A stretch of DNA of 45,320 bases, taken from IMG/VR virus record IMGVR_UViG_3300009180_002798, positions 1 to 45,320 of that record; one strand, 5' to 3'. A program made the translations under genes and the position numbers. The notes under the pieces are model-generated. The model ran no database searches. It worked only from the letters and a program-made list of their open reading frames with translations, and had not been told where the DNA came from. The number at the start of each line of letters is the position of its first letter. The first letter of the stretch is position 1. Of the stretch, positions 41,507 through 43,888 are shown piece by piece. The stretch comes from a virus.

Positions 41507-43888
41507 ATGGACAAGTTTAAGCAATACTTTAATTTGGATAAACCAACTCCTGTGGTTTCTCCGCAAAGTGAAATGCAATCAACACAGGATCTGAGAGGTC
41601 CTGTTGGGCCACGAGGCCCACAAGGTCCTGTAGGTCCCCAAGGACCTGCTGGTGAAGACGGATGGGCTGGTCCTCAAGGCGAACCCGGTCCTCAAGGCGC
41701 ACCGGGATTAAAAGGTGAAAAGGGCGATACTGGAGAGACTGGCTGGCCGGGAGATAAAGGCGAACAGGGTGTTCAAGGAGAACCAGGTCCAGAAGGTCCT
41801 ATGGGTCCACAAGGCCCAGAAGGTGCTGTAGGCCCACAAGGCATTCAAGGACCTATCGGTCCTCAAGGTGTTCCGGGCGAAATAGGACCACAAGGTGTTC
41901 CCGGTCCGGTTGGTCCTAAAGGACCCAGAGGAGATGTAGGCCCAGAAGGACCACAAGGCATTCAAGGTCCAGAAGGCCCAGAAGGCGAAATCGGTGCTAT
42001 TGGTCCGCAAGGTCCAAAAGGTATTCCGGGTGCTAAAGGAGAACCTGGTCCTCAAGGAGTACCGGGTCCTGTAGGTGCACAAGGTCCAGAAGGTCCTCAA
42101 GGACCAAAAGGCGATCCTGGCGAGTCTAATATTATTTCTGCCAACTATCCGTTAGTACTGGAAGAAGGTGAGCTTTCTTTTGATGGATCTAAATTTAAAC
42201 AAGAACTCACCAGTCTGGTAAAAACCAAACTAGACGCACAAACAGTAGCACAGAATTTTCAATGGCTGAATACTGGTTCGGTTGGTGGTGGTGCAGTCGG
42301 CATCTATAAAGATCGTGCCAGAATAATCAAGTCGGTTAACGATTTAAACTTTACTGGAGATGGTGTAGAGCTGGTTCGTAAAGGCAAACAAGTAGATGTT
42401 AAGATTACTGGTGGAGAAATATCTTATCCAGTTTTAGTAGGAAAAGGAACTTTAAATTTCTCTGTATTAATGAGTGATGGTGAAATTTTACTTTTTGGCA
42501 GAAACGAACATCAACAAATAAGTGGTTGTACTTGTTTGAGTCAACTAGATCCTGATATACAAATAACTGTTGTTGGTACCGGCTACGGTTCTGGTGGATA
42601 CACTTCCGTCAGATTCAGTAAAGCTTCACAATTGCTACCAGTAAAAATAAGTACAGCTGATACTTACACTGCTATACTATTAAATACAGGAAAAATATAC
42701 TTCTGGGGAGCATGGCAAGGATATAGTCAGTCTGTTCCGGACTGCAACATGTTCAATTATATGAACATATTGCATCCTAATCTTAAATTCAAAGATTTTT
42801 CTGCCACTAAAGGATACAGTAGATTTAGTGCACTAACAGAAGACGGCGATTTAATAGCATTTATTAATGGTGAAGATGGATTAACTTACGGATCACAACC
42901 AAACACTTGGGATAATGATCCGAATACAAATGATCAAATAACTTATTATAATGCAAATCCAGATGCACAACACAGTTTTGCTCGTTATAAATTCAAACAA
43001 ATTTATATGGCAGAAGAACTAGTAATTGGCATTTTAGAAAATAATAAAGTTTATATTAGCGGTGATTCAGGATTATTGTCAGGACAATGGACAGTATATA
43101 ATTATCTTGACAGTATTTACAATCCATTTGCAGCATACCTTTTTGGAGCAAATTATCCTCCTGTTGGTGGTTTGATCACCGATGACTTTAAAAATGTGGC
43201 GTCTTCTCAATTTTTTAATGCTGGCGTTTTAACCGACGGAACTCCAAAACTTTGGGGTTATTTAGCTTCTGGTGCAACACTACCATCACAATACACTCAA
43301 TCTGGAATTAAAGCTGTTCAAGTAGAGGTTGCCCAAAATGGTGTGTGTTGGGTTATGGAAAATGGTACTGTTGAATGTTCTGGTGTTAATGTCACCGAAA
43401 ACATGCCTGCAGGCATAACCAACGATTCTTCGTATGCTATTAAACAAATAGCAATAGGTGATAGCAATGTAATTGCTCTATCCCACAATAACAAAGTTTA
43501 CACTTGGGGGTTTGATACTGCAACTGGTAGTTTAAATATAACAGATATAGTTGCTCAACACCAAAAATTATCAATTCCTACCCCCTCGCTTTACGAGCAA
43601 GCACCGTTTGCTTACGATCAAAACGTTTCCGTTTACAATTCATCGGGTGCTTTAGTTGGTATAGCCAGTGGTTTAAAATTTACTGGTAGTGGAGTTACTT
43701 TATCAACAGACGCAAACAACAAGCAGGTTGTAGTTACTGTTAGCGGTGGAGTTGGCGGCGGTTTCTATCAATCCTCCACTGAACCTACAGGCACAATATA
43801 CAGTGGTGATCGTTGGTTTAATACTGATACCGGAACATTATTCACAAGAATACTGAATGGTATCACTGGTATATGGGCAGAATTATAA
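41507..43888 (+). CDS. Collagen-like fibre protein with RCC1-type beta-propeller
   Basis: Encodes 793 residues. Residues 31-207 are 59 uninterrupted G-X-Y triplets, a collagen triple helix. Residues about 266-303 ([24 protein letters not shown]) form a fibre repeat that recurs at about 709-748 ([26 protein letters not shown]). Between them, about 308-672, lie seven RCC1-type repeats: [84 protein letters not shown] and [14 protein letters not shown]. That is the number for a closed seven-bladed propeller. The C-terminus ([10 protein letters not shown]) is shared with the protein at 14531. It is probably a host-binding fibre; the ligand is unknown. Confidence 0.9.
41597..42127 (+). repeat. Collagen-like G-X-Y coding repeat (59 triplets)
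   Basis: The region encodes 59 consecutive G-X-Y triplets, rich in GPQ, GPE, GEP and GVP, giving a DNA pattern of degenerate 9 nt units such as GGTCCTCAA. The antisense strand is open over most of this stretch only because of that composition. Confidence 0.95.

Follow-up and report, generated by a model that had tools for sequence, protein, structure and literature searches.

The locus considered here raises a simple question: what does a phage do with a domain made of RCC1-type repeats, carried in the middle of a collagen fibre? The window, i.e. the whole stretch of 45,320 nucleotides analyzed (positions 1 to 45,320 of the IMG/VR record IMGVR_UViG_3300009180_002798), encodes a portal, a scaffold, a major head protein, a clamp loader and an SbcC/D-like protein. 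The closest matches to the head protein are found in Synechococcus phages (57.6% for S-BM3), the value for Methylophilales phages being 56.2%, and it is on this likeness that the phage is called T4-type. We consider it likely that the domain is an exchangeable receptor-recognition module, that is, a putative RCC1 propeller inserted in the collagen fibre of a T4-type phage.

The fibre gene (41507-43888, on the plus strand, as are all parts of the fibre and the neighboring genes given by coordinates below) encodes 793 amino acids. Its N-terminal segment (residues 1-30; 41507-41596), identical in the sister phage L002 over residues 1-29, probably serves for attachment. A collagen-like Gly-X-Y stalk follows (residues 31-205; 41597-42121), which PF01391 recognizes with an E-value of 2e-27; its length of about 175 residues bears out the 177 residues claimed in the first-pass annotation. 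Phage tail-fibre families of PHROGs match the 793-residue protein on this collagen part, which is low in complexity. A minus-strand open reading frame of 130 residues, at 41708-42100, reflects the collagen repeat on the other strand and is unlikely to be a gene. The hinge and the first beta repeat (residues 206-303; 42122-42415) lead to the region predicted, by Pfam, a blade profile and a structural model, to fold into a seven-bladed RCC1-type propeller (residues 306-690; 42422-43576). The chain is completed by a second beta repeat (residues 700-748; 43604-43750) and by a fibre end of 45 residues with a GDRW motif (residues 749-793; 43751-43885). The beta repeats flanking the propeller (residues 259-303 and 700-748) are related, with a local score of 62, equalled by none of 2000 shuffles (maximum 44), so that the two copies of a fibre repeat proposed at the outset are indeed present; they are far apart in sequence, and hence not the product of a recent duplication. 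The fibre end, likewise proposed as a shared one, has counterparts in the fibre ends of relatives at other loci.

RCC1-type blades were searched for over residues 296-700 of the fibre protein by a profile of 26 positions, derived from 141 blades of other loci, with the window, L001-L004, L019 and L020 excluded from training; the motif offset of the profile was set after inspection of the blades of the window, which were themselves kept out of training. Seven blade cores were found, at residues 308-333 (42428-42505; profile score 8.7), 378-403 (42638-42715; 7.9), 430-455 (42794-42871; 3.1), 496-521 (42992-43069; 4.1), 561-586 (43187-43264; 21.5), 603-628 (43313-43390; 3.9) and 645-670 (43439-43516; 26.4). 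All seven score positively, from +3.1 to +26.4, and the eighth-best site falls to -17.8. Added together, the best seven blades give 75.6; composition shuffles attain at most -67.5, none of 5000 reaching the observed score, and the same profile detects no positive blade site in 8 control proteins of the window. The Pfam family PF13540 (RCC1_2) matches the fibre protein with 37 bits, over a cut-off of 22, its best stretch (residues 645-668) lying in the seventh blade. Taken together, these results confirm the seven RCC1-type strand pairs of the first-pass annotation, whose coordinates, 42430-43530, are right to about 15 bases, the blade cores having been measured at 42428-43516.

The domain is not a typical representative of its family. 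PF25390, which describes the whole domain, gives an E-value of 1.1e-14 and 55 bits against a cut-off of 150, and PF00415, which describes the repeat, gives 9.4 bits against 21.7; since both cut-offs are missed, we read the propeller as a divergent RCC1 member. Identity to the more canonical rows of the RCC1 alignment is low, 16-21%, and the loops after blades 1 to 4 are long. A full-length blade HMM built on 212 seeds picks up only three pieces in the fibre protein, one of them negatively scored. When the whole sequence is compared by phmmer with solved structures, UVR8 (E 4.3e-6, a sum over several weak stretches) and HERC2 (E 8.9e-6) are returned.

Structure prediction by AlphaFold2 from an alignment of 30 sequences produced an RCC1 propeller, with a pTM of 0.70 and a mean pLDDT of 63.9; from the two sequences of the window and the sister phage no usable model was obtained (mean pLDDT 37.2). 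In the larger alignment, blades 2-7 of all 29 other rows are exactly in register with those of the window, and blade 1, detected in 8 of the 29, is in register there. Ten-residue means of pLDDT are mostly 78 to 93 in the cores of blades 5-7 and about 52 to 62 in blade 1; 122 of 401 residues, several long loops among them, are below 50. Because the rows are largely other RCC1 proteins, the model is steered toward RCC1; the count and the spacing of the blades derive from the sequence, whatever the steering of the model. Foldseek places UVR8 first (E 1.7e-14, TM 0.57 by query length), followed by RPGR and RCC1. VIA-align also ranks UVR8 first, with a Z of 27.8 for 301 residues aligned at 3.2 A; HERC2 (Z 24.1), RCC1 (23.7) and BLIP-II (22.2) are next, and propellers outside the RCC1-like group are found from Z 16.5 downward. 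The nearest folds are mostly binding proteins. These predictions support the reading of residues 306-690 as a seven-bladed RCC1-type propeller, and the fold expected by the first-pass annotation is what prediction and fold search returned, on a model steered by RCC1 rows. Neither Pfam nor PHROGs matched the repeats to a characterized phage fibre domain of another fold, and the propeller alone has no match in PHROGs better than E 0.15.

The hinge is found in 18 IMG/VR loci, only two of which, L019 and L020, both near relatives, carry the propeller: L019 is the same contig as L001, 100% identical there, and L020, the sister phage, the same contig as L002. Thirteen propeller-less loci were compared, L033, L035 and L036 being set aside as cut short. 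In 6 of the 13 (L024, L026, L028-L031) the fibre end lies 2-12 residues past the hinge; these joins have 16-23 identities over 35-39 columns, and score 74-126 against maxima of 42-55 in 300 shuffles each. Three more (L022, L023 and L025) have a related GDRW sequence 41-243 residues on, followed by 107-109 more residues, and in the remaining four, L021, L027 (incomplete), L032 and L034, the GDRW fibre end was not found. The six direct joins indicate that hinge and end enclose a slot which need not be occupied. They support, from sequence comparison, an insertion of the propeller into an existing fibre, with the hinge repeat on one side and the fibre end on the other, as the first-pass annotation had supposed from the duplicated repeat. 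Hinge, propeller and end have no significant tblastn match in 50,697 phage records (best E about 1).

The window and the sister phage L002 are 81% identical in the propeller, 96% in the hinge and in the second repeat, and 98.6% in the tail-spike type protein upstream. For the propeller, the synonymous divergence (pS) amounts to 0.40; elsewhere in the gene it is 0.20, and in the upstream tail-spike gene 0.036. The excess in the propeller is clear by free permutation, none of 5000 reaching it, but weak by circular shifts, of which 48 of 748 were as extreme; it fits a more diverged or exchanged allele at the slot, as seen in a single pair of phages. The dN/dS of the propeller is 0.20 in this comparison, which implies that the domain is kept under constraint. 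Hypervariability of the loops was not found between window and L002, 37 of 203 residues differing in loops and 35 of 182 in blade cores, and 3225 of 5000 permutations were as extreme. The loop after blade 4 (residues 522-560; 43070-43186), picked after the fact, differs at 16 of its 39 residues, and the loop after blade 1 (residues 334-377; 42506-42637) at 1 of 44; the former may be a candidate contact site. Past the second repeat, the fibre of L002 (5158-7716) goes on with collagen and beta repeats that resemble those in the window gene at 43904, so that fibre ends seem to be exchanged too.

The fibre gene lies among spike and adhesin-like genes. An adhesin-like protein of 2036 amino acids (33013-39123) is encoded upstream, followed by a tail-spike type beta-helix protein (39152-41440), and the next gene after the fibre gene, at 43904, is fibre-like, its weak collagen match (21.9 bits) staying below the cut-off of 27.2. 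At the position of the adhesin-like protein, the giant protein of the sister phage (L005) has an RCC1 domain too; no RCC1 blade was found by profile scan in the window copy. The middle of the protein differs, being made of TIG and other parts in the window and of fn3, beta-helix and RCC1 parts in the sister, and the C-terminus is common to both, as judged from the translations and from a 92.9% blastn match of 5011 columns reaching into it. RCC1 stretches like that of the sister protein, with six blades each by profile, are found in nine contigs (L006-L014), in reading frames of 1524 to 3194 residues in eight of them and of 554 residues in L007. Just upstream of the fibre genes, the region 28815-32335 encodes a nucleotide-sugar epimerase and a glycosyltransferase with TPR, which might decorate the fibres. 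The contig L001 overlaps the window and extends past its right end; its region 7325-10744 resembles, by eye, a dUTPase and a B-family DNA polymerase.

RCC1 repeats occur, as independent fusions, on other viral fibres too, namely on collagen stalks, on T7-type fibres and on fibre-repeat stalks. The proteins of L050-L054 contain 14 RCC1 repeats each by profile and have, like the window fibre, a collagen stretch followed by RCC1 repeats; they differ from it in having two groups of seven, nearly canonical repeats with a second collagen stretch between them; the collagen, and the order collagen, seven repeats, collagen, seven repeats, were read in L050. Of three proteins scanned downstream of the L051 gene, two have matches among tail, tail collar or tail fibre families and one has none. 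With the double domain of L050 as query, 37 of 50,697 phage records were matched at E 1e-3 or better; at least one of these matches, that in H66, is near the query end only, beside a tail fibre label. In L063-L065 the RCC1 repeats are at the end of fibre-repeat proteins, and in L063, the one whose neighbors were scanned, the gene stands among fibre genes. The uncultivated L037 has its RCC1 gene directly after one matching the long tail fibre distal subunit. In L042, a frame of 1433 residues (1647-5945) contains, as counted by profile, 25 RCC1 repeats, a tandem series long enough for more than three propellers, and RCC1-like matches are also found in pithoviruses and other giant viruses.

Two Pseudomonas phages, PollyC and Ppr_SeaP3, resemble the window in carrying an RCC1 domain on a tail fibre, and are unlike it in that the domain follows an N-terminus of the T7 fibre type (PF03906 scores 23.1 and 23.0 bits, slightly below the cut-off of 25.2), without a collagen match. 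The protein is labelled 'tail fiber assembly' in PollyC, where residues 1-334 match a tail-fibre-assembly family of PHROGs, and RCC1 protein in Ppr_SeaP3. In PollyC its gene is flanked by that of an internal virion protein and by those of the holin and the terminase, which is the position of the tail fibre in T7. Phage RCC1 proteins are often labelled 'regulator of chromosome condensation', and PHROGs files phrog_4219, phrog_7220 and phrog_16766 under DNA, RNA and nucleotide metabolism; the first of these covers almost all of the PollyC tail fibre, which is T7-type.

The neighborhood of the RCC1 gene was read in 13 named phage records, in four of which a tail fibre or baseplate annotation is found beside it or nearby. 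A tail fibre gene adjoins it, or is one gene off, in S-SRM01, BUCT-ZZ01 and LIBA6276; in SP-15 a baseplate gene lies seven places upstream, and a pectate lyase adjoins. A cell adhesion protein is found in the same stretch in Jenst, and a pectin-lyase protein adjoins in LIS04. The neighbors in Serratia phage BF are further RCC1 genes, hypothetical genes and one 'virion structural' gene, and those in Marinobacter phage PS6, Salicola phage SCTP-2 and a Helicobacter prophage are hypothetical only. Yong-DA was rejected as support, as the stretch read contains polysaccharide genes and a dockerin protein and no phage genes; the RCC1 matches of Afl-JY11 and Pag-JY44 were set aside along with it and not counted. 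The phage records ON073792.1, PP438404.1 and PP438434.1 have the same length, 42,586 bases, and the stretch seen in ON073792.1 resembles a set of polysaccharide genes from a bacterium more than a phage.

Parts of this arrangement are already known, namely propellers on the stem of phage receptor-binding proteins and propellers combined with a collagen shaft in extracellular contractile injection systems (eCIS). The receptor-binding proteins of the Staphylococcus phages phi11 (Gp45) and 80alpha (gp61) are described as trimers with a stem, a propeller of five blades, suggested to be the glycan-binding part, and further C-terminal domains (PMC4901313, PMC7048315). The window fibre shares the order of stem, propeller and C-terminal parts, and differs in having seven blades and a collagen stalk, where those proteins have five blades and a coiled-coil stem, with no collagen in the receptor-binding protein itself; the portions of these reports available to us mention no RCC1 repeats (PMC4901313, PMC7048315). 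The eBAP3 fibres of eCIS combine a propeller with a collagen-like shaft, an arrangement which their authors call undescribed in phages; their propellers are lectins, their end is TNFR-like, and RCC1 does not appear in the main text (PMC12923769). The window differs from these systems in that genes for a portal, a scaffold and a major head protein are present. Extracellular contractile injection systems are headless.

The window propeller has a repeat motif and seven blades in common with UVR8, the HERC2 RLD, RCC1, RPGR and BLIP-II, its nearest folds; unlike them, it lies inside a phage collagen fibre, is acidic and has long loops after blades 1-4. Nothing points to a role for it in the nucleus, with Ran or in chromatin, and Ran is not known from phages or bacteria. 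Domains of about 7 RCC1 repeats, as in the window, have been described in surface proteins of honeybee Bifidobacterium, which are bacterial rather than phage proteins, diversifying and anchored to the cell wall (PMC4449606). RCC1-like proteins have also been reported in phage virions or genomes (PMC5259590, PMC11370258, PMC7247149). Within the open-access literature, the scope of our search, we found no paper that ascribes receptor binding in a phage to an RCC1 propeller. The statement in the first-pass annotation that no well-described phage receptor-binding protein is built in this way stands as far as that literature goes; the architecture is not unique, since RCC1 repeats recur on other phage fibres under another name.

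Four other explanations of the domain can be put forward. That chance repeats, or a different repeat fold, have been taken for RCC1 would agree with the low identity to canonical rows and with PF00415 remaining below its cut-off; the outcome of the 5000 shuffles, the lack of any positive blade in the 8 control proteins and the Foldseek match to UVR8, the latter on a model steered by RCC1 rows, leave this reading with very little credit. Enzymatic propellers occur on phage tailspikes (endosialidases), and the neighboring gene encodes a beta-helix protein of the tail-spike type, so that a propeller cutting or modifying surface polysaccharide, like these sialidases, deserves mention; we regard it as improbable, as no glycosidase family is matched in the propeller by Pfam or PHROGs, and the nearest folds are mostly those of binding proteins. 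A role in DNA condensation or packaging, under which PHROGs files such proteins, has been proposed by the authors for the RCC1-like proteins of phAPEC6 and W70 (PMC7247149, PMC11370258); mass spectrometry found the RCC1-like proteins of W70 and GAP32 in virions (PMC11370258, PMC5259590), and some stand-alone phage RCC1 proteins are basic, such as S-SRM01 gp337, with a pI of 9.43. Presence in the virion, however, suits a fibre equally well, and phrog_4219, a 'chromosome condensation' family, spans nearly all of the tail fibre of PollyC. In the window, the domain forms one chain with a collagen stalk and a fibre end, and the propeller is acidic (pI 4.69, with 20 K+R against 33 D+E), hence ill suited to DNA binding. 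For the window, we judge a DNA-condensing or packaging protein to be highly improbable; such a role may hold for some of the stand-alone phage RCC1 proteins.

A structural spacer or decoration has somewhat more in its favor, and is still unlikely in our judgment. The propeller would here bind no receptor, host binding being left to the fibre end or to the neighboring spike; in a variant, its partner may be a different protein of the virion, or it may make the fibre wider. The domain lies inside the chain and not at the tip, the fibre end is kept in 6 of 13 propeller-less relatives, and variation is not concentrated in loops; its position and the lack of loop hypervariability do leave room for a structural role. 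Against this, the slot is empty or otherwise filled in relatives, as expected of an optional recognition module and not of a needed structural part, and RCC1 repeats are C-terminal in the T7-type fibres and in those of L063-L065.

As an exchangeable receptor-recognition module, the domain would work as part of a tail-associated fibre, the product of 41507-43888, attached to the tail by its N-terminus. The collagen part would form a trimeric stalk reaching out, trimerization being expected from the family, and each fibre would thus display three propeller discs. The disc in the slot would contact a host surface molecule by its loops or its rim, as RCC1-type and other propellers bind their partners, and the fibre end would close or cap the trimer. 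A lineage could gain, lose or swap the disc at the exchangeable slot.

Some phage proteins now labelled as chromosome proteins probably do likewise, serving to grip the host cell. Whether RCC1 propellers form a general class of receptor-binding domains in phages, present on collagen, T7-type and T4-type fibres and on giant adhesins of unrelated phages, with the label of chromosome condensation or DNA metabolism wrong for most of them, appears to us an evenly balanced matter. If true, a group of phage proteins to which chromosome or packaging roles are now ascribed would turn out to be recognition domains, and the prediction of host range from genomes would change accordingly. A seven-bladed disc built of repeats would join the known recognition domains of phages, and the question would be approachable in phages already in culture, PollyC or S-SRM01 for example.
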